Notes under the pieces: model-generated
Seen by the model: only the letters and a program-made list of their open reading frames with translations
Told to the model about the DNA's origin: nothing
Database searches by the model: none
Shown: positions 2,905 to 58,349 of the stretch, one piece after another
Layout of the letters: each line of letters begins with the position of its first letter
Position numbering within the stretch: the stretch's first letter is position 1
From: a virus
Virus record (IMG/VR): IMGVR_UViG_3300036851_000339
Coordinates: 1 to 64,000 of that record
Direction: 5' to 3' (one strand)
DNA: 64,000 nucleotides
Program-made: the position numbers and the translations under genes

Positions 2905-3780
2905 TCACTTTTTGAATTTTGCGAAAATCGAACTGCGAGAATGGGCCTCTTTAAGGTCATCCGAATCTGGATGGACATAGATCTGAGTGGTTCTCAACTC
3001 TGTATGGCCTAGGATATTTTTCAGGAAGAGCACATTCCCTCCACCCTTCAAGAAGTTGGTGGCAAATGTGTGACGTAGACGATGGAATCCGCCCATCTTT
3101 TTAATGCCCAAAGAAGAGCAGAGGTTGGCATAGTCTTTTCTCAGATTATCATATAGAAGTTTTCTTCCCATTCGAGTGCAAAAGACATATCTATCATTTG
3201 GCAACTTGCTTAGTTCCTTTGAATCCAGGAAGCGCATCAATATTCGACGGAGTTCAGGTGAGAATGGCACTATCCTCTCTTTCCTTCCCTTTCCGTAGAT
3301 TTTGAATCTCTCGTTATCAAGATCAAGATCACCAGTCTTCAATCCAAATGCCTCATTGATTCTTATCCCAGTATCAAGAAGAGTGAGAACAATGGCCTGA
3401 ACTCTCTTCTCCCCAAAGAAAGTTGGCTTGTAACTCAACAGCGCTTTAAGGTTCTCCTCTGGAAGAGTCTTCACCACCTCAATTGGAGTAGCCAACTTTT
3501 TGATCTTCAATTTCTCTGTGATATAGCCATTCTCCATGAGCCACCTGAAGAATGCATTGAGGGATCTCGCGTAGCAGTTGATAGAGGTTGGTCTAATTGA
3601 AGTTTTGTGTAGAGCCTCAAGCCAATCAATGATAGCGGCTTTATCCAGCTCTTGCACACTTTCCAGTTGACAGGTCTTTCTGAAAGAGGTATATGCCTGT
3701 CGATGAGCCTCCTCTGTCTTCTTAGTTATGTTCTTTTCGTATATTCTCTCTCTAATAAATCTCTCAAAGTGATTGTCCAT
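2905..3780 (-). CDS. int: Tyrosine recombinase / phage integrase
   Basis: This 291-residue XerC/XerD-like site-specific recombinase would join phage and host DNA at att sites. The N-terminal core-binding domain (residues 1-100) is followed by the catalytic domain with all expected residues: Arg140 (TGIRINEAFGL), a beta-hairpin Lys (GKGRKERIVP, 163-172), His233-x2-Arg236 (HRLRHTFAT), His259 (LGHTELRTT) and nucleophile Tyr268 (TQIYVH). The length is typical of compact integrases. A 42-nt copy of half a tRNA-Thr gene lies 145 nt upstream of the start, the arrangement of an attP site. No clear lysogeny repressor gene was identified, so whether lysogeny is functional is open. Confidence 0.92.
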   Translation of the reverse strand: MDNHFERFIRERIYEKNITKKTEEAHRQAYTSFRKTCQLESVQELDKAAIIDWLEALHKTSIRPTSINCYARSLNAFFRWLMENGYITEKLKIKKLATPIEVVKTLPEENLKALLSYKPTFFGEKRVQAIVLTLLDTGIRINEAFGLKTGDLDLDNERFKIYGKGRKERIVPFSPELRRILMRFLDSKELSKLPNDRYVFCTRMGRKLLYDNLRKDYANLCSSLGIKKMGGFHRLRHTFATNFLKGGGNVLFLKNILGHTELRTTQIYVHPDSDDLKEAHSRSSIFAKFKK

Positions 3781-22731: not shown

Positions 22732-25700
22732 ATGGCCTCAGAGATTCCTATCGTTGATCCTTACGAGATCGAGTTCGATCAGGATACAGACATCACCTAT
22801 AAAGATCCTGTCACTGGAAAGAGGATAGCGGTTCGCCCGCCGAAGCCTAAAGCCCCAGATGTCTATAAGAAGATAGGCACCGAGCTGATTGAGGATATCA
22901 AGAAGGGCATCGAAGTAGAAAGGCCCATCAAGAGAGCTCTCACTCGACCTCAACGGAAAGACATCAAGATAGAACCCCAGTTCGATACAGTGGTAGCTCC
23001 TCCTTATATAGATTCATCTGGGAAGTGGGCTCCATCTTTTGAGTCTGCCTATCCTGGATTGACGAGAGGTCAGAGCGTAATGGCGGATGCCTTAGCTCGA
23101 CCAGATGAAGAGAATGAGTTCCAGCGAAAGGTGACGCTTGCTGAATTCGACAGGGAGATGCAGAAGAAGAACGCTCCTGGATATGTGGAACAGCTAGGGA
23201 ATAGGTTTGCCAGAGGGTATATGAGTTCAGGGGAGAGTATGCTTAAAGGGGTTTCTCTTCTGAATAAGGAATCAGCCACAGATCCCACGACCCAATTCCT
23301 ATATGAGACTCCTCAAGAGAAGAGGGCCACCTATCAAAGGCTTATGCCTATTGATGAATATGATAATAGTCTGCCAATGCTGGCGGCTCAAGGATTGGGG
23401 TCATCTGTCCCATTCATGATGGGTGGAATCGCTGCGGGGCCTCTCTCTACTTATTCTACTGCTCTTCTGGGAGCTGCATCCAACGCGGGTTCTACCTATG
23501 ATGATGCTATCGCTAGAGGAGCTGATGACTCATCCGCGAGATATGCAGCAGTGGTTGGGGCTGTGATCGGATTGGGTGAGGCTGCTGGGATTGGAAGAAT
23601 CAAGGGATCATCGAAGTTGCCCTTCCAGATGAATCCACTGGCGAGAGTTGGGCAGTATGCGTTGCAGACAGGACAGGAGGGAGCTGAGGAATGGATTCAG
23701 GAGACGGCTTCTCAGATTCTAAACAATGTCAATGCTAAAGTGATTAGTGGATATGATCCGAATAGAGCCATCCAGGAAGAGGTTTGGGAGAATGGGCTGA
23801 GTGGATTCCTAACTGGTGTGCTGGCTGGTGGAGCATCTAGTGGCGCATCTCGACTGGCTCTTCAAGCTGATCCCCAATATCAGAAGTTGAAGGCTTTCGA
23901 TCAGGAGTTCAAGTTATATCTTAACAGCCCGGTTGATGAGAGGATTGCCGATCTTAAGACATTCACTCCATCAGAGGTTGGAGATCTCCCAGCCGCTAAG
24001 CCACTCGACTCTGCCTCGAAGAGAATATCTTTCTTGAATGAGAGGATTGAATATCTCAAGCAGAAGTCAGGAGCAGCCCAGGCAAGTGGAGACAGCCAAC
24101 TAGCAGAGTCAATCAATCAGAGAATGGTAGAGATGGAGAGTGAGATGTCTGCTCTTCAAGAGAACAGAGATCTCGATATGACCTTTGACCTCCTCCCCTC
24201 ACTCAAATCAGGTCAGAGTCCAGCGATGGTAGTTCCTAATTGGGTGATCGCAGCGGCTGAGAATAGGGATTACTCTCCAACTTTGGGCGTTACAGTTCCC
24301 ACGAAGTTATTTGGTAGAACTCTGGGACGAGTTATGCAGAGAAGTCCCTCAAGAGAGCACATGGAGGCTGTTGTCGATGCTCTGTGGGAGATCAAGAATG
24401 CTGCGAGTGATGAGGGTCTATCTTCAATTGCGCTCGTCAGTAGGGATGCTCTCACTCAAGGATATAGCCAGGTCCCATCTCACGAGTCTCTCCATGTTGG
24501 GCAGATAGCGGCTGCTGAAAAGGCCGGAATAGGAGAATCACTTTGGGAGTTGCACGATAAAGAATGGGCCAAGACAAACCCCTTTATTCAAAAGGTCATA
24601 GCCTCTGGAAAAGGAAGTGAGGTTCTCACTCCCGGAAGAGCTCCAGAGGACCTCCTCGCTGTCGAGCTTCCAGTCTACGTGATGACGAATGAGGCCACTA
24701 GATTTTTCGATACTGATGAGGAAGGTGATGACTTTGTGATGGACTATTTCACCCACATCCTTCACAATAGAGGAGTTGAAGCCCTCAATGAGATCGAGAG
24801 GGCTCATCGAGCTCTTCCTGGAAGAGAAGAGATAATTCCACAAGTAAGGAGCATATATGAATCCCATATCAGAGAACTCATTGACGCAGGGACCGTCCCA
24901 AGAGAAGCGGGAGATAGGTTCCTTGAATCTTTCATTGCTGGCCGCACATCTGAAGTCCCTCCTGGAATCGGGAGTCCCAGAAGCAGAGGCGTTGGCGGAT
25001 ACAAAACTGCTGATGAGGAAGCTCAGATTGGCAGTCTCCCAGCCAGTGAGCCTCCCAGAGGAATCGCTCCAGACCTCAGAGAGTCAAATCTAAATAGATT
25101 CCTAGAGAAATCCTCAGTCAAGGTTCCTCTTTATCATGGGACATCATCTCCCAGTGAGATAGTAGGAATTGATCCGTCCAAGTTTGCTCCTAATGCGCTC
25201 TACGGACCTGGGTTTTATATGACCCAGAGTAGTGAGATTGCTGCGGGAGATGAGGGTTACGCTACAACAACTGTAGATAGATATCAGCAGCCAGTTAAGA
25301 TGGAAGGGCCATTTGGCGATGAGATAGAAGTCCTGGAAAGTATTGGAAAACCTCGTGCCTATCAACTCTACACCAACATCCAGAAGCCCCTCAATGTTGA
25401 ACAAGTTAGTGACGTGGAGCTAGGAAAGAAACTAGATCAGTTGGTCGGGTTTGATTATCCAGTCTTACAAGACGGAGTAACTCCTGATGCGGATAACCAA
25501 GAAATATATCAATTACTAACTCGATATTTTGGAACTAAAGAAGAGGTTAATGATTGGTTACAGGCTCAGGGGTATGATGGGATTACTCATATAGGGGGAA
25601 TTACTAATTCTCCTAAATGGTTCCAGTCGGAAGAGGAAGCTAGAATCTATGCAGATCAGACTGGAGGAGATCTTCTCGGTCCTGAAAATATTCCATTTCA

Positions 25701-28700
25701 AGCAACTGGACCTATGGGTGAGCCTTGGATGGTCAAGGGACATAGAGTCTGGATCGCATTCCCTAACGCTCAGGTGAAATCAGCGACAGGCAACATAGGA
25801 GCCTTCGATCCCAGCAATGAAGAGTTGTCTGCTGCTATACCTCCTCCACTCAAAACTGTCTCTGACCCAAATGAGAGAGAAGATAATCTTCTTGAGTTTC
25901 TTAGGGATTCACAAACATTCTATAAGAGTGGTGATCCCATAAAATTGTATATTCCTTCCATAGCTAGGACTGCTCCAAATGTTCTAAATATAAATGACTA
26001 TGTAAAGAACAAATATGCTGGCCTTGAGCTATATCAAAGTCCTGAAGCTGCTGAACAAGATTTAGAGACTAACTATAAATATGGAACTCCAACAGACAGC
26101 GAGTTAGAAGCAGATCCAGATTTTGAGGCGATCTATAATCAACAGTTGCCTTTTGTTATTGGAGATTGGAAAAGACAACAAGGACTTCTACCCAGCAGAA
26201 AATTTGATGACCCCATTCCAGATTATGTAATGCCATATCTTGAGGAAAGAGCTCGCATTAAAGCTTTTGAGATTCTCAAGAATCGTTATCCAAATGTTCC
26301 TCCAGGAGATGTTCTACCTACTAACAGATCTCGGCAGCTACAGTCTTTCTATGCCAATATAACAAACCCTTTTGATTTGGAGAAAGGTTTTACTCCAGAA
26401 GAAATCGAGAGGATACGAGAGGGAATGATAAAAGAGCTGGCTGAAAGACGAGATAAAAAACAGTTAGTATCAAGCCAGAACTATGAGGATATACGATTTA
26501 ATGTAGAGGATTCAGCTCTACGGATTCTGGAGGAAGAGGCAGAGAATGAGATTGACAGAGTTCAAGTGACAGGCCAAAGGATCTTCGAGGAGATGGGTAA
26601 GTATCTAACCAACTCTAGAGGAGGCCCAATGTGGACAAGTATTAATAGAGCTCTTCAGTTGGCTGGATATGATGGATATAAATATTTATATCAAGAGGGA
26701 TATCCTAAAGAATTTAATTCGCTGAAGGAAGCTAGAGATTACGCGGATAAAGTTGGTGGCATTCTTCGGGAAGAGGGCGGGTTTATAGTTGGACCTGATA
26801 GATGGATTACATATGAAGTAGTTGACCCTACCACTGGGCAGAAGTCAATAAATAGAAGATTAGATCCACATGTTAGCGTAGGGCCAACAGTTTATGGTTC
26901 TACAGTATGGGGTATATGGAATAGAAGCCAAATCAAGTCTGCTACTGGGAACATAGGAGCTTATGATCCTTCCAATGAAGAGCTGTCGGCATCTACTCTA
27001 CCTCCTCTGAAAGTAGGAGATAAAGTCAAGAAGAAGATTCTCTCAGGTGTTGGTAAAGAGGTGGGCGAGATCACCAGCCTTGGACAGGATGAGGATGGTG
27101 AGTTCGCAGTTGTCACATTCCCAAGTGGGTCAGAGGAGATCTATCTTGATAGACTGGTAAAGGATGTCCCGAAAACCCCATCTCCATCTACTCCACCAAG
27201 TAAAACTCCACCTGCCCCACCAACTAAGGTAGCCCTGGTTGGGGATAAAGTAAAGCTGAAGGATGTCCCCGATCCAGTCGAGGTCAAGTATCGAGCTATA
27301 GATGGCATTGTGGTTGTGATGCCCGATGGAACTGTTAAGCCTTTTGATTTCAAAGATATAGAGTTCGTTGCAGAACATGGAGCCACGAAGCCTAGATCTG
27401 CGGCTCCAAGATATACAATCAGACAGAAGGCCATCCTCGATAGCCCAATCATAGAAGAGGTCAACCCTTCCCAACAATCTCTCCCAGGGATAGAAGCTCC
27501 TAAGAGGGTGCAGGCTGTTCCTGAATTGGAGAAGCCAGCTCAACCTCGTCTACCTGGTGTCGAAGAGTCACCCATTCTCTTCCAACGCCATATCACCCCA
27601 GAAGTAGTAAGAGCTGTAACGGAGGGGTTCAAGGCTCTACTCGATGCGGGGGCTATAAAGCGTGACCCAACTCAGAGAGTCTTCCTCCAGGTCTATGATG
27701 CCGTGATGACTGGGAAGATCAACCCAAGGAAATTCTCCGATCTCCTCGATGAGAACAACCTCTCTATTGAGGACTTCGCATCGGAGCTAGAGGAGACAGC
27801 ATCTGAGGCGGGGCGCATTCTGGGAGAGTTCTCTAGATTGTCTAGGTATACCGTGAAGTTCATGAGGGAGAACCCAGATCTAGCGAAGAAGGTCATCCCG
27901 AATAAGGTAATGATGGATGCAATCCTGAGAGAGATCGAGACAGATGTGCTTGGGAGGAACTTCCTGGATAGAGCCAGTGGATTAGGAGTTGGACTCATTC
28001 TCTCTGATCAGTTCATAGCAATCCGGAATATTGTCACAACCCTTAAGCGAATCCCTATTCTGGGAGGAACTCATGCGATTGCTGCTTGGGTTAAGTATGT
28101 GAATGAGGGATCTCCAAAAGGGATGAATTATCCTGATACTATCGCAGAGGCCAATCATCAAGCCCTTATGGCATTCGAGCCAATGGCGGAGGTCCTCGCC
28201 CACATGACTCCTCCTCAACTAAGGAGATTCCTCAACTTCAAAGGGATGGGTGAGAGTGAGAAATACACAGAGGCCATCATCCAACTCTCAAAACACTTTC
28301 CCCATTTAGAGAAGGAGTTGGCTGTTCCGGGGTTCGGGCCTGATAAGAAGAGTGATGATGCAATGGTGGAGATGGAGGGCAATGTAGAGACGGCTAGGCA
28401 GATCCTTAATGATATGAGGATAGATATTAAGGATCGGGATAGACTGGAGAGAAGGTTCAAGATCGCTGAGAGGAGATTAGAAAGTAACACAAAGGGAATT
28501 GGGAGAGTGCTCAGAGGAATAGAGTGGCCCATCCAGCAGATGATGAGACCTGCTAACTTTGCTGAGAAGTTCTTTCGGCATCCAGTCTTCTATGGACATC
28601 TCGCAATGACGATGAAGGAGAAGGGGTGGGATCTGGCAGATGCTATTAGATTTGAGAAGGGGCAAGAGAAGGATCTCACCACAGAACAGAGAGCACTGAG

Positions 28701-30057
28701 ATTTAGGAATATTCCAGAGGAGGATCTCAAGTCAGCGATAGATGAGGCTCTCTACTTCACTCATGCCTATATGCCGAGAGCTGAGAATGGCCCATTGGAA
28801 GCGGCTGGAAGAATGATGATCCAGGCCCTCAATGTGACTCGTCCTGTTACTGGCCCTGCTCTTAACCTCTGGTTCGCCAAGGCTATGTTCAACTCAATGA
28901 AGTTCACTTGGGAGTATGTTCCTCTGATTCCTCTTCTGGGTGGAGGTGTGCCATCTCTTCTAGCTCTTCCATTGGGGATGATTGGTCCAGCGAGTAGGAT
29001 AATGTTCCCTCGAATCTTCACTCCAGTAAAAGGTGATCCTATTCCCATCAACCCAATCAGACCCAATGATTATAAGAGATTCGCAGCGGGCATTGTTGGC
29101 ACCATCATGTACACGATGGCCAATGCTCTTCTCGATGCAGGGGGAGGGGGTGATGAGTGGTGGCAGATAGATACTGGGAGGAAGGGAAAGAAGGGGCAAC
29201 CTTTATACGTGGATATCAGATCCGACATGCCCCTCGCTAATTGGTTTAGGGTTGCAGATCTGAACAGAAGAGTAAAGGATGGCAGGCTCAACGACCTCAA
29301 GTTCAGCCAAGAGATGCTCGAACTCTACACAGGTATGCAGAGAGGAGCTCCTGATATGGCTGAAGCTCTTGATGGACTGATGGAGATGTGGGCGGATGGA
29401 GATGAGCCAAGGGAGAGTGCTTATACTAATGTCGGGAGGAGATTCTCTTTTGTCACTAAACCCTTCGCAAATATAAGAAACTTATGGGCCATATTCTCTG
29501 AGGAGGAGAATAAAAGAAAAGATTTAAAGGGTACTAGATTTTTAGGCCCACTTATTGATAACCTACCATACTTCAGAAGGAGTTTGCCGGATGTTAACCC
29601 CCCGACTCAGGAACCTCCAGTTCTAGCATCCGAGTATCCAGCGACTCAGTGGGTCCCTGGAATTAAGTTGGTGGAGGGTGAGAGTTTTGCCGGTAGGGAG
29701 TGGAAGAGGATGGGCTTTTATAATCGGAGATTTCTACAACCCGATCCGAATCCACTTATCAATAGGGCGCAGAATGATTATTTCAGAAAGCAGATCACAG
29801 GTCTTGGAGACACACTTGAGAAGAGTGAGTATTATAAGTCTCTGGATGATTCTGGAAAGGCTGCTCTCTGGGAGTATTACATATCGGGTGATGGTGGGAT
29901 AGCCTCAGAGGCGAGAGAGGCTGGAGCTCAGGCTGACTATCTTGAGCAGTACAAGAGGCAGTTGAGAGAAGAGGCAGGAGGAGAGCTCCAGAGGAAGGCA
30001 TCTGGGATGGAGGAGAGGATCAGGAATATCAAAGCGCCATCGCCTGCAACGAAATGA
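22732..30057 (+). CDS. Giant polyvalent internal virion protein with protease and ADP-ribosyltransferase-like modules
   Basis: 2441 residues, probably packaged and ejected with DNA. Order by eye: residues 150-290 carry a hydrophobic Gly/Ala region that may span a membrane; 540-700 include SHESLHVGQ (about 583-591), an HExxH zinc-protease motif of the kind in polyvalent-protein metallopeptidases; 797-1030 look like an ART-PolyVal ADP-ribosyltransferase, with LYHGTS near 800, a GPGFYMT motif near 825 and the closing KSATGNIGAFDPSN near 1015; 1060-1410 look like a second, degenerate copy that lacks the HGT box but ends in the same KSATGNIGA motif near 1401; 1425-1550 hold two SH3-like segments; the last 900 residues are mostly helical with hydrophobic stretches at 2050-2140. 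It occupies the T7 gp16 position. Enzyme activity is inferred from motifs. Confidence 0.7.
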   Translation: MASEIPIVDPYEIEFDQDTDITYKDPVTGKRIAVRPPKPKAPDVYKKIGTELIEDIKKGIEVERPIKRALTRPQRKDIKIEPQFDTVVAPPYIDSSGKWAPSFESAYPGLTRGQSVMADALARPDEENEFQRKVTLAEFDREMQKKNAPGYVEQLGNRFARGYMSSGESMLKGVSLLNKESATDPTTQFLYETPQEKRATYQRLMPIDEYDNSLPMLAAQGLGSSVPFMMGGIAAGPLSTYSTALLGAASNAGSTYDDAIARGADDSSARYAAVVGAVIGLGEAAGIGRIKGSSKLPFQMNPLARVGQYALQTGQEGAEEWIQETASQILNNVNAKVISGYDPNRAIQEEVWENGLSGFLTGVLAGGASSGASRLALQADPQYQKLKAFDQEFKLYLNSPVDERIADLKTFTPSEVGDLPAAKPLDSASKRISFLNERIEYLKQKSGAAQASGDSQLAESINQRMVEMESEMSALQENRDLDMTFDLLPSLKSGQSPAMVVPNWVIAAAENRDYSPTLGVTVPTKLFGRTLGRVMQRSPSREHMEAVVDALWEIKNAASDEGLSSIALVSRDALTQGYSQVPSHESLHVGQIAAAEKAGIGESLWELHDKEWAKTNPFIQKVIASGKGSEVLTPGRAPEDLLAVELPVYVMTNEATRFFDTDEEGDDFVMDYFTHILHNRGVEALNEIERAHRALPGREEIIPQVRSIYESHIRELIDAGTVPREAGDRFLESFIAGRTSEVPPGIGSPRSRGVGGYKTADEEAQIGSLPASEPPRGIAPDLRESNLNRFLEKSSVKVPLYHGTSSPSEIVGIDPSKFAPNALYGPGFYMTQSSEIAAGDEGYATTTVDRYQQPVKMEGPFGDEIEVLESIGKPRAYQLYTNIQKPLNVEQVSDVELGKKLDQLVGFDYPVLQDGVTPDADNQEIYQLLTRYFGTKEEVNDWLQAQGYDGITHIGGITNSPKWFQSEEEARIYADQTGGDLLGPENIPFQATGPMGEPWMVKGHRVWIAFPNAQVKSATGNIGAFDPSNEELSAAIPPPLKTVSDPNEREDNLLEFLRDSQTFYKSGDPIKLYIPSIARTAPNVLNINDYVKNKYAGLELYQSPEAAEQDLETNYKYGTPTDSELEADPDFEAIYNQQLPFVIGDWKRQQGLLPSRKFDDPIPDYVMPYLEERARIKAFEILKNRYPNVPPGDVLPTNRSRQLQSFYANITNPFDLEKGFTPEEIERIREGMIKELAERRDKKQLVSSQNYEDIRFNVEDSALRILEEEAENEIDRVQVTGQRIFEEMGKYLTNSRGGPMWTSINRALQLAGYDGYKYLYQEGYPKEFNSLKEARDYADKVGGILREEGGFIVGPDRWITYEVVDPTTGQKSINRRLDPHVSVGPTVYGSTVWGIWNRSQIKSATGNIGAYDPSNEELSASTLPPLKVGDKVKKKILSGVGKEVGEITSLGQDEDGEFAVVTFPSGSEEIYLDRLVKDVPKTPSPSTPPSKTPPAPPTKVALVGDKVKLKDVPDPVEVKYRAIDGIVVVMPDGTVKPFDFKDIEFVAEHGATKPRSAAPRYTIRQKAILDSPIIEEVNPSQQSLPGIEAPKRVQAVPELEKPAQPRLPGVEESPILFQRHITPEVVRAVTEGFKALLDAGAIKRDPTQRVFLQVYDAVMTGKINPRKFSDLLDENNLSIEDFASELEETASEAGRILGEFSRLSRYTVKFMRENPDLAKKVIPNKVMMDAILREIETDVLGRNFLDRASGLGVGLILSDQFIAIRNIVTTLKRIPILGGTHAIAAWVKYVNEGSPKGMNYPDTIAEANHQALMAFEPMAEVLAHMTPPQLRRFLNFKGMGESEKYTEAIIQLSKHFPHLEKELAVPGFGPDKKSDDAMVEMEGNVETARQILNDMRIDIKDRDRLERRFKIAERRLESNTKGIGRVLRGIEWPIQQMMRPANFAEKFFRHPVFYGHLAMTMKEKGWDLADAIRFEKGQEKDLTTEQRALRFRNIPEEDLKSAIDEALYFTHAYMPRAENGPLEAAGRMMIQALNVTRPVTGPALNLWFAKAMFNSMKFTWEYVPLIPLLGGGVPSLLALPLGMIGPASRIMFPRIFTPVKGDPIPINPIRPNDYKRFAAGIVGTIMYTMANALLDAGGGGDEWWQIDTGRKGKKGQPLYVDIRSDMPLANWFRVADLNRRVKDGRLNDLKFSQEMLELYTGMQRGAPDMAEALDGLMEMWADGDEPRESAYTNVGRRFSFVTKPFANIRNLWAIFSEEENKRKDLKGTRFLGPLIDNLPYFRRSLPDVNPPTQEPPVLASEYPATQWVPGIKLVEGESFAGREWKRMGFYNRRFLQPDPNPLINRAQNDYFRKQITGLGDTLEKSEYYKSLDDSGKAALWEYYISGDGGIASEAREAGAQADYLEQYKRQLREEAGGELQRKASGMEERIRNIKAPSPATK

Positions 30058-30058
30058 T

Positions 30059-30607
30059 TTATGTTACTGATTGCCATCTTACTCCAGTTTTTATAAAATA
30101 TATAGTTGTCGGGGATAGCCCAAGTAAGTTCGCAATAGAATGACTTGTTACACCTTTTCGTAACATGCTACGAATTATCCTTACTTGTTTTGAGGTAAGT
30201 TTAGCTGAGGAAGATCTTTCACCACTGGTATCAGTAAGACCAGTCTCCCGCGCGTGTTTGTTGTTTTCAGCTAAGGTTATCCATTCAAGATTTTCGGCAC
30301 GATTATCAGTTTTGCGCCCATTTATATGGTTGATGCAAAGCCCATCTTTATAGCCTGGAACAAAGGCCCATCCAACAAGACGATGGATAAAGATCTTTCT
30401 TCTTTTTCTATTGATTACAGGATGAATATACCAGTATCCTTCTTTAGACTTGACTGGAGAGTATTCTTTGGATGGATATGCCTGTCTATATGGAGTTTGT
30501 TTCTTTCTATTTACTATTATGGAAAAAGCTTTTCGTCTAACTTTGCCGTCACTCGTTACTTGAAGATAATCTTCGTAGCTGGGTACATCTTTCCAATCGT
30601 TTCTCAT
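30059..30607 (-). CDS. HNH homing endonuclease-like protein (NUMOD4 + HNH + HTH)
   Basis: 182 residues from the ATG at 30607, chosen for AAAGGA eight nt upstream; a longer frame to 30673 has no good ribosome binding site. N-terminal NUMOD4-like segment (WKDVPSYEDY...), then an HNH nuclease core (HRLVGWAF..., INHINGRKTDNRAENLEW) and a C-terminal helix-turn-helix (about 125-175) likely used for DNA recognition. Such free-standing enzymes spread by cutting alleles that lack them. It lies on the opposite strand between the giant virion gene and the endolysin. Confidence 0.85.
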   Translation of the reverse strand: MRNDWKDVPSYEDYLQVTSDGKVRRKAFSIIVNRKKQTPYRQAYPSKEYSPVKSKEGYWYIHPVINRKRRKIFIHRLVGWAFVPGYKDGLCINHINGRKTDNRAENLEWITLAENNKHARETGLTDTSGERSSSAKLTSKQVRIIRSMLRKGVTSHSIANLLGLSPTTIYFIKTGVRWQSVT

Positions 30608-30673
30608 GCAAATTCCTTTCAACAAATTGGTCATAATATTAGTAATATGAGTAACAATATCACAAGGACACAT

Positions 30674-49003: not shown

Positions 49004-49587
49004 TTAAACACCTCCATCCACACACTACAGGTTATTACCCTATCCAGCCTCGTCCTACAGTAGAGATGCTGGATAATTGAAAGAGCTTCAGCAGTAGTAG
49101 CTTCTGATGTGACTCCACTCTCGATCCCGACCATCACCCTTATGGATTGCTTCTGTTGGCCTGGTGTCTTCAGCAACTCATGAGCAAACTTTGTCATTGC
49201 TATCACATTCAAATAACGATCCCGCTGGAAGGCCCATACCCCAAGGGTTTCACGGGCATCGTTGATATAAGGGATGAAGTTTGTGATGCTCATCAACTTC
49301 CAATTCTGCCTCTTCACCCTCCCTATCAGTCCCCCAGCTAGGATGAACTCCCCTCTATCTCCCACACCCAGGGAGAGGGATGCCGCCCACTTCTTCCCCT
49401 CCCTCCACATCAAGGCCCTCACGTCCTCCATCCCAAAGAGGGCCATCGAATAGATAGGGATATGTCCATCATCTCTTCGGAACCATCTTCCCGCGTAGGG
49501 GTAGTCTTTCTCTCTTAGCATTCTGAGGAGTCGCATCTGGGCTTCCTCAAGAGTTATATCAGGGCTATCTTTCATAGTAGCTCCCAT
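49000..49587 (-). CDS. Hypothetical protein downstream of the JAB gene
   Basis: 195 residues, alpha/beta. Either of two nearby ATGs (49587 or 49575) could be used; both have a ribosome binding site and both overlap the JAB gene end. It is the last gene tightly linked to the E1/E2/JAB set, so a role in that system is possible. No motif recognised. Confidence 0.6.
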   Translation of the reverse strand: MGATMKDSPDITLEEAQMRLLRMLREKDYPYAGRWFRRDDGHIPIYSMALFGMEDVRALMWREGKKWAASLSLGVGDRGEFILAGGLIGRVKRQNWKLMSITNFIPYINDARETLGVWAFQRDRYLNVIAMTKFAHELLKTPGQQKQSIRVMVGIESGVTSEATTAEALSIIQHLYCRTRLDRVITCSVWMEVFK

Positions 49588-50491
49588 ATAATTCTCTCCA
49601 ATAATCCTCTATCTGTCCCGTCTCCTCCAGGAACTCTCTATACACCTCTTCCTTCTCCTTGTTGTTGTTACCCCAATATCCTGGCATCCCTACTCTATTT
49701 TTGTTACTCCCCTTACCTCCATTATATGTAACAACATAAGCCTTCTCAGGTTCAGGGAGTTCTGAGAGAATAGCCCCGCCATCTGACCCAAAGGCTGCTC
49801 TATTATAATTCGAGGTAGTCTCCACTCCACAAGACGCCTTGTCCTTGTGAGAGTATGATCCAGCCCTATAACGCAGTATATTAGGGCAATCTCCCAAAGA
49901 CTCAACCTTCGAAGTGATTGAAGGTCTCTCGATTTTATGGCTGAATGGCCAATCTTCTACCCCAAGAGGCATCAGATTCGCATATGACACCCCCATCTCT
50001 CCACACTCTAGATCATAATTAAGGATGGCCTCATAGCTGAAGCCTAATAATTTCGACTCAACTTTAGAATCTGGAGTGGCCACCACGATAGAGCTGGCGA
50101 AGTTGGAACAAATCCCTCCATCCGATAGATCTCCCCCATCTCCTTTCGCCTTGAGTGATCCAGAGAATCTCGCAGACATCATATGATGAGAGTGAATCCC
50201 ACAAACCATCCTCTCCCTCACCCACTCAGGGAACATCTCATCGAGAGTGGGCTCATCTCCTTTATATGGCCTAACGTGGGACCCTCTACGGATCTGGTTG
50301 GGTGGGGTCCAGAGCTCAGTAATAATGACATGAAGACCATTTTCATTTCGTTCACCCAACCCAACTGTCATCCACTCATCCTTATCCCAGATAGCTCCTG
50401 CAAGTTGGGCTATCAACTCTGGAGCGATCTCGATGAGCCCCTTTGTGGCTTTGACGACTGGGCAACTTACAACTTTCTCAATCTCAATCAT
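49565..50491 (-). CDS. JAB/MPN-domain protein (putative isopeptidase)
   Basis: 308 residues. The N-terminal 130 residues form a JAB/MPN metalloprotease: probable catalytic Glu39, then a strand and VIITELWTPPNQIRRGS (about 55-71), and His100-Ser-His102 followed by seven residues and Ser110; the Asp that normally comes three residues later is displaced to 118 or 121 by an insert. JAB enzymes of this kind cleave bonds after a Gly-Gly C-terminus. The C-terminal half is of unknown fold. The start overlaps the E1 stop. Together with E1- and E2-like genes this indicates a ubiquitin-like system. Confidence 0.75.
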   Translation of the reverse strand: MIEIEKVVSCPVVKATKGLIEIAPELIAQLAGAIWDKDEWMTVGLGERNENGLHVIITELWTPPNQIRRGSHVRPYKGDEPTLDEMFPEWVRERMVCGIHSHHMMSARFSGSLKAKGDGGDLSDGGICSNFASSIVVATPDSKVESKLLGFSYEAILNYDLECGEMGVSYANLMPLGVEDWPFSHKIERPSITSKVESLGDCPNILRYRAGSYSHKDKASCGVETTSNYNRAAFGSDGGAILSELPEPEKAYVVTYNGGKGSNKNRVGMPGYWGNNNKEKEEVYREFLEETGQIEDYWRELYGSYYER

Positions 50492-51104
50492 TACTCCTCC
50501 TTATCTCATTTACTGGATTCGCCGCAGTAGGCATAAAGTGTTGAGTCTCTATTATCTTCCCTGTATAGAGGAGATAAAGGATCGCTTCTGCTCCCATCCC
50601 CACTGATCGGAAGACTTGCCCCAGCCAGGGCTTGATGGTGTAGTCATCGTGTTGTTCTAACTCATCTCCCATGTAGATAGGTGGGCCTGGGGAGACTGTG
50701 GCGATGCCTGTTCCATCGAGGGCCAGACGGATGCCTTTTATATCTAGCATATCAATAGTATCCCACATCAACTCTCTCTCCGATCTACCCATATCAGTAG
50801 CATCTACAAAGATAGTCTTACTCCAGTCTCCCTCTCCAAGGTCATCAGGATAAAATCTTCTGGTATGGATAATAGGTGGAGTGTTCCCCATCACATACTT
50901 TATGAAGGTATGGAGGTATTCCACTTTTGGTTGAGTTGGATCGAGAGGCATCGGGAGACGTTTAGCCCCTCCTCCACCTACAAAGTTGTCATCATCGTAG
51001 ACTTCTATTGGGACAATATCCTCAAGCTCACGGCATAAAGCTACTGTAAGCCAGAAGGCTGATCCCGCTCCTGCTATCACGATTCTGTTATACAAAGGCT
51101 TCAT
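50484..51104 (-). CDS. ThiF/E1-like adenylating protein
   Basis: 206 residues from the ATG at 51104 (GAGGAAGAAG before it, overlapping the E2-like gene by 17 nt). A Rossmann ATP-binding start RIVIAGAGSAFW (about 7-18), an acidic strand end EVYDDDN (about 34-40) followed by an Arg (about 48) in the position of the ThiF N-x2-R motif, and FVDATDM near 103 fit the E1/ThiF superfamily. It has no separate catalytic-Cys domain, like minimal bacterial E1s. It would adenylate the C-terminal Gly of a small modifier protein. Confidence 0.65.
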   Translation of the reverse strand: MKPLYNRIVIAGAGSAFWLTVALCRELEDIVPIEVYDDDNFVGGGGAKRLPMPLDPTQPKVEYLHTFIKYVMGNTPPIIHTRRFYPDDLGEGDWSKTIFVDATDMGRSERELMWDTIDMLDIKGIRLALDGTGIATVSPGPPIYMGDELEQHDDYTIKPWLGQVFRSVGMGAEAILYLLYTGKIIETQHFMPTAANPVNEIRRSND

Positions 51105-52020
51105 CTTCTTCCTCCTCTTCCTCTTCCATCTCAAAAGAAGGCTCACACTGACAGGGTGAGCTTCCACAATCCCCACAGTAGTTCTCACAACGTTCACATA
51201 TATTATCGCCGTTTAGCTCCTCATTACTGCTGAATGACTCGCCACATGCATCACATATAAAGGCTGGATGCTCTACGCAATATGTGCAGACCCTTCTATC
51301 ATTCAACTCACTCCTCAGCTCCATATATCCACAGGTGTTACAGCCTCTCAGTATGTTATAACAATCATAACAACATCTCAGCTCTCTCCTTGAGTAGTAC
51401 CTTGACTCAGGCTCAAAGAGTGTCTTTGAACATATGTTACATTCTATGTACAACCCGATCCGACATTCAGCGCAGAACCTCCTTTGATCCATGTCCAATA
51501 CCTTCATGCAGTTCTCGCATCTGAACATCTGCGCTATCTCAAGACACTTAGCTGAGCATAGTTTGGTGTCTTTAAACCCAAAATAGAACTCAACGTCCAC
51601 AAAGAACTTTCCACTACAAGCTGGGCAGTTTTTATATGGAAGCCTCTCACAATCATGCCCTATCTCAACCAACCATCGAGGGACACAGTAGACGTGCTTC
51701 CCTTTGGCGACCCCTGCAAATAGGGCCTCTGAGGCTGTTTTGGCCTCCCCAAGACAAACCTCTCCACTCATCCTCCATGAATGGGGGTGGACTATCTTAC
51801 CCTCGCTGATTGGAGAGCCATCCAGATTCCAACATCCCTTTATATAGTGTGATTGGTCATTGATTAACCACACTCTGTTAGTAGGAAACCACCCATCACA
51901 GTAGGGACAACGAGCCTCTGGGTTGATGAAGAGTTTCGTTTTTGTTCTGAGATCCCATCCACTTTTAGACTTATCTATAGCAGCATCGAGACTTTTCCTC
52001 AGCTTATACCCAATACTCAT
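51088..52020 (-). CDS. E2-like protein with zinc-rich C-terminus
   Basis: 310 residues from the ATG at 52020, which overlaps the upstream stop (TGATG); an extension to 52053 is rejected. Residues 70-95 contain HPHSWRMSGEVCLGEA, matching the HPx-xxxx-G-x-CL pattern around the active Cys of ubiquitin-conjugating (E2) enzymes. After it come at least eight CxxC pairs (residues 130-300, e.g. CPACSGKFF, CENC, CNIC, CNTC, CDACGESF), like a string of treble-clef or RING-like zinc knuckles, and an acidic tail. It could combine E2 and E3-like functions. The E2 fold is inferred from one motif and gene context. Confidence 0.55.
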   Translation of the reverse strand: MSIGYKLRKSLDAAIDKSKSGWDLRTKTKLFINPEARCPYCDGWFPTNRVWLINDQSHYIKGCWNLDGSPISEGKIVHPHSWRMSGEVCLGEAKTASEALFAGVAKGKHVYCVPRWLVEIGHDCERLPYKNCPACSGKFFVDVEFYFGFKDTKLCSAKCLEIAQMFRCENCMKVLDMDQRRFCAECRIGLYIECNICSKTLFEPESRYYSRRELRCCYDCYNILRGCNTCGYMELRSELNDRRVCTYCVEHPAFICDACGESFSSNEELNGDNICERCENYCGDCGSSPCQCEPSFEMEEEEEEEDEAFV

Positions 52021-52703
52021 CACATCCCTCCATGGATAGAGAGCGACACCCATCCATCCTCAGTGGTGGGATAGACGATCTCTCCTGTCTCTCTTAGCCT
52101 CCACACCTTCGCCTCACCTTCCTTCTCAGGTGGACACAACCCCGCGACGAGATTTGATCCTCTCTTGATAGCGATATCCGTTATCTCAACGCCTGAGAAT
52201 GTCGAAGCGAGATATGCTCCTGGGACCGAGGAGAATTGATTGATTGCTGCTGATGTCGCTATTTTGATAAGGGCATCAATGATTTCCTGCTCGTGGTCGA
52301 TTCCATAGAACTGCGCAACACCTGACAACACTCCCGTCAGCCAATCTGGCCTTGTTCCTCCGGATGCGTGGGCGAGATAGATGATGGGATCTATCAGACT
52401 TTCTCTCTTCTCATAAACTGTTCCACTTACGATGCGATAAACAACCTGATTGATCTGCACAATGGCAAGTTTCCCTCTCCATTGAACACTCTCATCTCTG
52501 CTCACTTTAAGGATGAACTCCCTCACATACGGAATAATCTGAGGGTCCATATGTTCATGGTCGATTCTGCCTCGATAGATATTCACTTTTAGCTCCTTTA
52601 CGCGACAAGGAGTCGCGGTTCGCAAAAGATTTTCATAAACAGAAAGAGGGAGGGATCTTTCGATCTCCTCCCATCTGAATGGCCATATAAATGGCGCTGG
52701 CAT
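52020..52703 (-). CDS. Hypothetical protein ending in Gly-Gly-Met
   Basis: 227 residues. The C-terminus is WVSLSIHGGM, a Gly-Gly followed by one residue. N-terminal part mixed alpha/beta, centre helical (residues 110-160), C-terminal 70 residues beta-rich. It is coupled to the E2-like gene by stop/start overlap. It may be a modifier precursor or a substrate of the E1/E2/JAB set; no family was recognised, so this is inference. Confidence 0.55.
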   Translation of the reverse strand: MPAPFIWPFRWEEIERSLPLSVYENLLRTATPCRVKELKVNIYRGRIDHEHMDPQIIPYVREFILKVSRDESVQWRGKLAIVQINQVVYRIVSGTVYEKRESLIDPIIYLAHASGGTRPDWLTGVLSGVAQFYGIDHEQEIIDALIKIATSAAINQFSSVPGAYLASTFSGVEITDIAIKRGSNLVAGLCPPEKEGEAKVWRLRETGEIVYPTTEDGWVSLSIHGGM

Positions 52704-55135: not shown

Positions 55136-55210
55136 TTTTGATTGGAAAAGCAAATCCTCTTATATCTCCTAGAAGTCCTCACGGATATTCCCGACTCCCA
55201 TAAATCAAAA
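55136..55210 (-). ncRNA. Stem-loop unit directly behind tRNA-Asn
   Basis: TTTTGATT (minus strand 55210-55203) pairs with AATCAAAA (55143-55136), 8 bp. It begins at the base after the tRNA 3' end, as in the two other units, and encloses the 13-mer TATCCGTGAGGAC shared with the unit at 54609. No open reading frame of note. Confidence 0.45.
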
Positions 55211-55282
55211 GGTCCACGATTAGACTCGAACTAATGACCTCTCCCTTAACTGGGAGCGCTCTGTCCTCTGAGCTACGTGGGC
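55211..55282 (-). tRNA. tRNA-Asn-like gene (anticodon GTT)
   Basis: 72 nt. Acceptor GCCCACG/CGTGGAC with one mismatch, D-arm GCTC/GAGC, anticodon stem CTCCC/GGGAG, T-arm ATTAG-TTCGAGT-CTAAT. The anticodon loop reads AGTTAA, only 6 nt, matching tRNA-Asn (..TGTTAA) with one base missing, so the anticodon is probably GTT. No encoded CCA. The shortened loop may impair decoding or be specially processed. Confidence 0.7.
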
Positions 55283-55289
55283 CAGAACT

Positions 55290-55684: not shown

Positions 55685-55714
55685 TTCGTTTTTTACTCCT
55701 TCTAGAAAATGTGA

Positions 55715-55789
55715 TGACCCAGGTTGGAATTGAACCAACGACCCTCGCTTTAGAAGAGCGATGCTCTAAATCCGCTGAGCTACTGGACC
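55715..55789 (-). tRNA. tRNA-Arg (anticodon TCT)
   Basis: 75 nt, all arms present: acceptor GGTCCAG/CTGGGTC (G-U pairs), D-arm GCTC/GAGC, anticodon stem TCGCT/AGCGA with loop CTTCTAA, T-arm GTTGG-TTCAATT-CCAAC. Reads AGA codons, which are visibly abundant in the phage genes, so it likely supplements the host pool. No encoded CCA. It starts 6 nt after the RNA ligase stop. Confidence 0.85.
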
Positions 55790-55795
55790 AAAAAA

Positions 55796-56809
55796 CTACT
55801 CCTCATCCTCCCTAAACGGTCTCGACGCTTCTGGATAGATCATCTTCCAGATTAACTTGGAGTAGTCTTTCTTGTCTAACATGTTAAAGAGAATCGCTGG
55901 GTACTCGCAAGCGCTAGTGAAATATTGAGCGGTTGCTTTTCTATTTCCAAAATCAGCGAATTGGAGCCAGCATAGATCCTCAATAGTTTTATACCTTGAT
56001 CTGAGATCGTTCTCTGTAGAACGAACCCAATTATAGAACTCATCTGGCACTCTCTCAACTATTTCTTTCAATCCATCAGGAGTCTGGAGAGCTTCCCAGA
56101 TGTGCCTCGCGCTCAGCCCTGTCAATAGGCTATGAAGGCGTTTGTATTCCGCGAATTTCATTTTCACCCGTTCACCAGATTCTGTGAATCGAAGAACGAA
56201 TCCTTCTTTGTTGGGCTCTTCTAGGGCTGAGAGTTCGTCAAAGCCCTTTATACCCTCATATCGTTTAGCGATAGGAAAGCCTATATCCTCAAGGGGTAGT
56301 TCTTTGCCTGTTGAGGTCTCTATGATCGCCAATAGAATGAGGTCTTCCATCTCGCCATAATCCACAACTATCCTATTAAGAGGGTGAATGATCTCGAAGA
56401 GATATGTGAGATCATGTCGGAACTCCACCTTCTTGTATTTCCTATCCAAGATATCGTTAGCAAACTCAGACTGCTCACTAGTGAAGCTCCCTCTTGTAGC
56501 TATGAATGGACGCTCACCTATAAAGTATAGAACTCCAAGTGACCCATCCAGCTTCTCATATACCTCAAAAGGGCCATTTGGCAAATTCCCCTTGAGCTGT
56601 TCTATGTTGAAGAATTTAGGGAATGGACGCGCTACTATATGTCCATCATCAGCTACAATCAACCCTCTACAGGCCATCGTCTCCTCTGTCCATCGCCAAT
56701 CATATTGACATTTGTTTGAGTAATTGTAGATTGTGAGAGGAGCGGTGGGATGGCGGTGCTTATTTATGTAGCCAGCCTGGACCTCCTCTTCTATCTTAAG
56801 CCAGTTCAA
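55796..56809 (-). CDS. T4 Rnl1-type RNA ligase
   Basis: 337 residues. The nucleotidyl-transfer Lys is K86 in YEKLDGSLGV, with RGLIV (about 48-52), FEII (about 135-138), EGFVLRF (about 200-206) and KMKF (about 213-216) as the other ligase motifs. T4 Rnl1 reseals host tRNA cut in the anticodon loop by defence nucleases. Here the gene directly precedes phage tRNA genes, some with odd anticodon loops, which supports a tRNA repair or processing role. Confidence 0.85.
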   Translation of the reverse strand: MNWLKIEEEVQAGYINKHRHPTAPLTIYNYSNKCQYDWRWTEETMACRGLIVADDGHIVARPFPKFFNIEQLKGNLPNGPFEVYEKLDGSLGVLYFIGERPFIATRGSFTSEQSEFANDILDRKYKKVEFRHDLTYLFEIIHPLNRIVVDYGEMEDLILLAIIETSTGKELPLEDIGFPIAKRYEGIKGFDELSALEEPNKEGFVLRFTESGERVKMKFAEYKRLHSLLTGLSARHIWEALQTPDGLKEIVERVPDEFYNWVRSTENDLRSRYKTIEDLCWLQFADFGNRKATAQYFTSACEYPAILFNMLDKKDYSKLIWKMIYPEASRPFREDEE

Positions 56810-57795: not shown

Positions 57796-58311
57796 CTAAA
57801 AATTCAGCCATGCAAATTCTCCAAACAGTTTTTTGGCCTCTTTATCGTAAGCCTTAGCTGCATCAATTTCAGTGTCATATACGCCAATATGTTTTTGATT
57901 CCCGCTTATGCAAATAGTGGCTACCCATCCATCTCTGCCCTTCGGTTTAGGTCCTCTAGAGCCTCCTCCCTTACTTCTAACTAGTCTAGATACTCCCTTA
58001 TATTTGGAAGAGGTATTCTTTCTTGGTCTACGATTTTGACAATTCTGTTTTTGGGTAGAGAATCTAAGATTAGCTCTCCTATTATCCAGGCCATCTCCGT
58101 TTATATGATCTACCTGCTGACCCGGTTTGGCGTCCATGATAAGTCTATGCATCGTCAGGCCGGATCTACGTCCAGAGCTATTTGTTATGTTAGCCCTTGC
58201 ATAGATAGTTTGGTTGTCCTTTTTGGGAAACCAGTTATATTTGTTGACTAGTTGATAATATCTATCATCTACTAGAGCTACTAAATCATTTGTTAGGTAT
58301 ATCTTTTTCAT
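57796..58311 (-). CDS. HNH-AP2 homing endonuclease
   Basis: 171 residues from the ATG at 58311 (no strong ribosome binding site; an ATG at 58329 is an alternative). HNH core VDHINGDGLDNRRANLRF (about 66-83) followed by an AP2 DNA-binding domain with YKGVS, WVATICISGNQKHIGVYDTE and AAKAYDKEAKKLFGEFAW. Typical free-standing phage homing endonuclease. Second such enzyme in the window. Confidence 0.85.
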   Translation of the reverse strand: MKKIYLTNDLVALVDDRYYQLVNKYNWFPKKDNQTIYARANITNSSGRRSGLTMHRLIMDAKPGQQVDHINGDGLDNRRANLRFSTQKQNCQNRRPRKNTSSKYKGVSRLVRSKGGGSRGPKPKGRDGWVATICISGNQKHIGVYDTEIDAAKAYDKEAKKLFGEFAWLNF

Positions 58312-58349
58312 GCTGAAATAATAACTCATTTAAGTAGATGACCCAATAT

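Follow-up and report, generated by a model that had tools for sequence, protein, structure and literature searches.

A phage gene cassette for E2-like, E1-like and JAB-like proteins as a divergent variant of a gene set common in phages

The first 64,000 nucleotides of the 70,482-bp IMG/VR virus record IMGVR_UViG_3300036851_000339 (hereafter the window) contain, at 49565-52703, overlapping minus-strand genes for a protein resembling ubiquitin-conjugating enzymes (E2), a ThiF-type protein resembling ubiquitin-activating enzymes (E1) and a JAB-type protease. We find that this cassette of an uncultured phage is an unusual, highly divergent variant of a gene set common in phages; it is not a first, because the same kind of set is common in other phages. 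Judging from its sequence, the cassette somewhat more probably than otherwise serves as a phage-borne, horizontally variable set for conjugating and deconjugating a ubiquitin-like protein (Ubl), and is related, though with much divergence, to the Ubl-E2-JAB-E1 cassettes of other phages. An earlier note on this DNA had described the overlapping genes, which are present as it said, and had read them as a conjugation or deconjugation system without precedent in podovirus-like phages, one that may counter or imitate host defense or modify virion or host proteins. The placement of JAB, ThiF/E1 and UBC/E2 relatives in one tightly overlapping phage unit stands; the lack of precedent does not, as E2-JAB-E1 runs occur in crAss-like (Steigviridae) phages, which are short-tailed.

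In the order of transcription, the minus-strand run consists of genes for U103 (103 residues, 53017-52706, ending RPVPGGKAY), a candidate Ubl precursor; X227 (227 residues, 52703-52020, ending SLSIHGGM), a candidate second modifier or accessory factor; the E2-like protein (310 residues, 52020-51088), with a Cys-rich C-terminal region; the E1/ThiF-like protein (206 residues, 51104-50484) and the JAB/JAMM-like protein (308 residues, 50491-49565), both assigned by profile similarity; and a 195-residue protein (49587-49000) that probably lies outside the cassette. The genes are closely packed: 2 nucleotides separate U103 from X227, X227 and E2 share a single nucleotide (TGATG), and overlaps of 17, 8 and 23 nucleotides join E2 to E1, E1 to JAB and JAB to the 195-residue gene, respectively. 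GGAGG-like sites precede the E2, E1 and JAB genes. The nearest relatives of the phage (portal 79% identical) keep the 195-residue gene but carry other genes at the position of the cassette, and neither the E1 profile, the JAB profile nor the motifs revealed a cassette elsewhere in their stretches. In one such relative, G002, which is without the cassette, the homologue of the 195-residue protein is 30% identical (L009:13717-14295). The cassette is therefore an accessory module of the phage.

Related sets were reached from the motif of the E2-like protein. A scan of IMG/VR for the HPH…CLG pattern gave one real E2 among ten, on phage contig L016, where the protein with the E2-type motif is followed by a Prok-JAB match and then by a ThiF protein (PF00899, 5e-17). 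A search with the E1 of L016 brought up L025–L027 as well as crAss-like, Flavobacterium and other phages with the gene order E2-like – JAB – E1, and the co-occurrence of the three genes that the earlier note had proposed to look for was found in crAss-like, Flavobacterium and metagenomic phages. A scan with the JAB alignment matched at least 600 stretches; among the matches listed, 320 could be confirmed as relatives, and we retained 80. E1 adjoins JAB in 71 of the 77 kept loci with a JAB open reading frame (ORF), the other 6 being cut by the contig end, and an E2-like motif lies upstream in 61 of the 77. Seven phage cassettes have, before E2, a small ThiS/SAMP-like protein that ends, to within one or two residues, in KGG/KAG. 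One of these seven proteins has a ThiS match (4e-4) that narrowly misses the cut-off, and the modifiers of related phages are in general weakly ThiS/SAMP2-like.

In the crAss-like and Flavobacterium phages, all three enzyme families are likewise combined in a single unit close to replication genes, the neighbors of the crAss-like runs being primase, uracil-DNA glycosylase, resolvase and exonuclease genes. These runs differ from the window cassette in order (E2-JAB-E1 versus E2-E1-JAB), and their E1 has the conserved Cys, their JAMM motif is canonical and their E2 is without a Cys-rich region, whereas the window proteins are the opposite on each point. Parts of the runs are annotated as "ThiF" and "metalloprotease", and the matching families (PHROGs 15310 for the E2-like protein, 16107/21448 for JAB and 15670 for E1), which searches with the window proteins did not reach, are all of "unknown function". 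The metagenomic Ubl-E2-JAB-E1 cassettes (L026, L027, L118, L120 and L122, as well as L025 and L115, with KAG ends) share with the window the HP[HY]...C.G motif, JAB and E1, but have a ThiS/SAMP-like modifier of about 63-80 residues before E2 and the order E2-JAB-E1. No description of a phage E2-JAB-E1 set was found in the open literature, which is weak evidence of absence.

Several of these loci have features of their own. The run in the seven metagenomic cassettes just named appears to be complete from the Ubl (KGG/KAG end) through E2 and JAB to E1, and in L027 a ParB_N protein directly after E1 recalls the plasmid-borne PRTRC (ParB-related, ThiF-related cassette) system. In L105 and L106 (6203-7452) and in L064 (6130-8067), E1 is split into two parts with several hundred to about 1,000 bases between them, possibly through insertion of an intron or homing endonuclease. 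In L040 (6179-7945) and L102 (4940-6015) the E1 match starts well downstream of JAB, and that in L040 is a short ORF of 166 residues.

Profiles made from the phage families bore out the ThiF/E1, JAB and UBC-type assignments of the window proteins. With shuffled sequences and other window proteins as controls, hhalign aligned the E1-like protein with 77 phage E1s (P 90%, E 1.4e-6, score 44.5; best control 24.6, best shuffle 23.2), the JAB-like protein with 81 phage JABs (P 92.6%, E 5e-7, score 50.9; best control 22.6, best shuffle 19.6) and the E2-like protein with the HPH-type phage E2 family (P 55%, E 1e-4, score 34.5; best control 22.4, best shuffle 20.3). When HMMER was used to rank the 271 window ORFs of at least 50 residues, each protein came first with its own profile (E 0.0005 for E2, 0.002 for JAB and 0.055 for E1), and the three top-ranked ORFs adjoin one another. 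PRTRC proteins served as positive controls on the phage profiles: ThiF scored 107, PRTRC A (JAB) 37.6 and PRTRC B 17.6, so that PRTRC A scored below the window JAB and PRTRC B, which is generally regarded as E2-like, below the window E2. (Note that L016 is not independent for the E2 profile, because the window's own motif led to it; the other E2s of the profile came to light through E1.) Against the PDB, the phage E1 profile matched UBA5, NEDD8-E1, ThiF, MoeB and Cap2 chains, down to 2e-15, and the phage JAB profile matched COP9 subunit 5 (CSN5), Rpn11 and JAMM1. The phage E2 profile gave weak matches only, 10 of 11 of them ubiquitin-conjugating enzymes, and the alignments shown place HPH…GxxC on HPNINSNGSIC with the Cys aligned.

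The 310-residue E2-like protein carries HPHSWRMSGEVCLGE; its active-site motif HPHSWRMSGEVCLG (residues 78-91; 51789-51748, minus strand) has the E2 active-Cys pattern that had been noted before, with Cys89 (51754-51756) as the candidate catalytic residue. Its columns align with HPNINSNGSICL of ubiquitin-conjugating enzymes, H-P and C.G are invariant across the phage E2s, and residues of the downstream helix agree partly with those of the phage E2s. The protein thus combines an HP[NH]...xxC-type motif with family similarity. The Cys-rich region (51627-51140) holds 10 of the 11 CxxC motifs of the protein, as compared with 0-2 in the phage E2s counted, and is a candidate zinc array or set of treble clefs; its match to FYVE is weak (E 0.0095, below the Pfam cut-off).

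The JAB-like protein holds Glu39 (50377-50375), His100, Ser101, His102, Ser110 and TPPNQ, in agreement with the His100-x-His102, Ser110 and PPNQ strand noticed earlier. Its JAMM core, H100-S-H102-x7-S110-x7-D118 (50194-50138, minus strand), is drawn from the sequence and the alignments: the residue three after the Ser is Leu113, and the JAMM Asp aligns at Asp118. We read a five-residue insertion here, because the following D118–…–NF–S-I-V-V is in register with the relatives at each column. All JAMM residues are present, and the protein matches the JAB family profile.

The E1-like protein has, in addition to profile similarity, the nucleotide-binding GxG, DxD, Lys and Asp of the family. It retains GAGS12-15, DDD37-39, Lys60 and Asp101/Asp104, of which G12, G14, D37, D39, K60 and D104 are invariant in the E1 alignment (alignment numbering without Met). 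What it does not have is the Cys of the phage E1 subfamily (C[TS]xK), which is present in all full-length members: 72 of the 77 relatives match C[STA]x[KR], 3 more have PCTF, PCGF or ACGF, and 2 are fragments. At that position the window protein has Lys158 (aligned by eye, in a region outside the hhalign coverage), and its sole Cys is Cys24.

The closest named cellular system is PRTRC, in which, on plasmids such as pMOL28, the genes ParB-E-C-F-B-A-ThiF bring a modifier-like C, an E2-like B, JAB (A) and ThiF together in one operon. The phage E1s match PRTRC_ThiF down to 1.4e-20, under the model's cut-off score. However, no PRTRC E, F, C or ParB lies beside the window cassette, its E2 motif differs, and the NCBIfam PRTRC models matched neither the cassette genes nor their upstream neighbors; we considered membership in PRTRC and did not accept it. 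Type II CBASS (cyclic oligonucleotide-based antiphage signaling systems, with the E1-E2 protein Cap2 and the JAB protein Cap3) and the Bil/BUB operons share the logic of E1, E2 and JAB, and related phage E1s match PADLOC E1-E2 models. In the window, by contrast, E1 and E2 are separate proteins, the PADLOC models matched none of E2, E1 and JAB, and no CD-NTase or effector was recognized beside the cassette (Pfam; neighbors tested), and we likewise did not accept membership in CBASS or Bil. The lambda-type tail assembly genes K and I encode a JAB and a Ubl (Iyer 2006, PMC1779556). They resemble the cassette in pairing a phage JAB with a Ubl-like protein, but are without E1 and E2 and belong to the tail genes, whereas the window cassette is in the leftward, replication-side region, which also holds the DNA polymerase.

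From the families, gene order, motifs and variability described above we infer a pathway that may operate as follows. The JAB protease would trim a small modifier to its Gly-Gly end, the candidates being U103 (…GGKAY), X227 (…HGGM) or a host ThiS/MoaD-type protein. Both U103 and X227 have GG near the C-terminus, a trait that few window genes share, and the X227 tail EDGWVSLSIHGGM resembles, by eye only, the phage Ubl tails GGDFVSFSRKVKGGN; no convincing homologue of X227 emerged from family and sequence searches. The ThiF-like protein would then adenylate the modifier, and, because this E1-like protein is without the conserved Cys, the adenylate would pass directly to Cys89 of the E2-like protein. 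The Cys-rich C-terminal region of the latter may hold the substrate, as a ubiquitin ligase (E3) would, and the JAB protein may later take the modifier off its targets during infection. The position of the genes, among replication genes in the crAss-like phages and in the polymerase region here, suggests that the proteins work in takeover or replication and not as part of the virion.

Several observations weigh against a working conjugation set. Searches with single sequences detected none of E2, E1 and JAB (curated families, IMG/VR, INPHARED, PLSDB, PDB and GTDB contigs), and no cassette protein had a match above cut-off in Pfam, PHROGs, NCBIfam or PADLOC. The E2 profile match spans only 38 columns around the motif, and neither U103 nor X227 matches the phage Ubl profile. 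AlphaFold2 models of the E2 domain (10 sequences; predicted local distance difference test score, pLDDT, 40) and of U103 (single sequence; pLDDT 43) were uninformative and were not used. The E1-like protein has neither the conserved Cys nor the N...Q motif, its GxGxxG lacks the third glycine, and in the JAB-like protein the insertion sets the JAMM Ser and Asp 7 residues apart instead of 2, an alteration peculiar to the window copy (81 of 81 relatives have the canonical HxHx7Sx2D). Because of these E1 losses and the JAB insertion, catalysis by both proteins may have been altered or lost.

The missing Cys and N...Q motif of E1 and the altered spacing in JAB favor the foremost alternative, namely that the cassette is derelict or repurposed and that E1 and JAB, their catalysis lost or changed, have become binding scaffolds or decoys, which might bind a host Ubl or the E1, E2 or JAB parts of type II CBASS (Cap2/Cap3) or Bil. 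We regard this as unlikely, though worth serious consideration: all JAMM residues remain, Cys89 of E2 is intact, the reading frames are all open, with ribosome sites and tight overlaps, and E1s of the MoeB/ThiF type adenylate their partners without a thioester-forming Cys. That last property lends itself also to a sulfur-carrier route, in which E1 and a ThiS/MoaD-type partner (compare the weakly ThiS/SAMP2-like modifiers of related phages) would make a thiocarboxylate for tRNA, nucleotides or a cofactor, JAB would trim the carrier and the "E2" would be a zinc protein; but the surroundings of the cassette showed no sulfur-transfer enzyme, and the HP..C.G motif stands beside E1 and JAB both here and in many other phages, which makes such a route improbable. 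It is just as hard to credit that the 310-residue protein is a multi-zinc protein only, with a chance HPH...CLG motif in a unit of E1 and JAB without an E2: it has eleven CxxC motifs and just 38 aligned columns, and HPHLIDRFGGVCLGE arises by chance in a Cas5-like protein of a cyanobacterial genome (L126, 3231-3860), so that an E2 cannot be proved by its motif alone, but the protein ranks first of 271 with the E2 profile, exceeds the hhalign controls (34.5 versus at most 22.4), adjoins E1 and JAB and agrees partly in its downstream helix.

Ubl conjugation in bacteria is known mainly from defense systems (CBASS and Bil) or from plasmid operons of unknown role (PRTRC). If phages own such a pathway, viruses of bacteria tag proteins too. 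A bolder form of the conjugation reading, which we offer tentatively and hold to be possible rather than probable, is that of a self-contained viral pathway, with its own modifier, a Cys-less E1 and an E2 whose zinc array is a built-in E3, that would tag host or phage proteins, together with an unrecognized class of Ubl cassettes across crAss-like and many environmental phages. Because E2–JAB–E1 runs are common in phages yet belong to PHROGs of unknown function, cultured crAss-like and Flavobacterium phages allow a direct test of the idea. To this the window variant contributes a Cys-less E1 and an E2 that has its own Cys-rich region, and with them what may be a shortcut from the adenylate to E2.

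Some leads were set aside. A Microbacterium phage match to JAB (E 0.02) lay on the strand opposite to the annotated gene; the HPH scan of GTDB contigs yielded the chance match in the Cas5-like protein and one further locus, whose listed ORF does not contain the motif; and an alignment led by the window E1 was too diverse to be used as a search query.

Elsewhere in the record we recognized genes for a portal, a terminase, a head protein, an endolysin and an RNA ligase, and for a DNA polymerase that weakly resembles phage DNA polymerase I. A tyrosine integrase gene near the portal gene (2905-3780; 1.9e-34) suggests that the phage is, or formerly was, temperate. A protein of 2441 residues (22732-30057) weakly matches virion RNA polymerase across some 170 residues (4e-5), a hint of an N4-like trait. 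HNH endonucleases (HNH_3) at 30059-30673 (also NUMOD4) and 57796-58329 are likely homing endonucleases. The RNA ligase gene, of T4 type (55796-56809), lies beside genes for tRNA-Arg(tct) (55713-55790) and for a tRNA-like molecule whose anticodon is unassigned (55210-55283).

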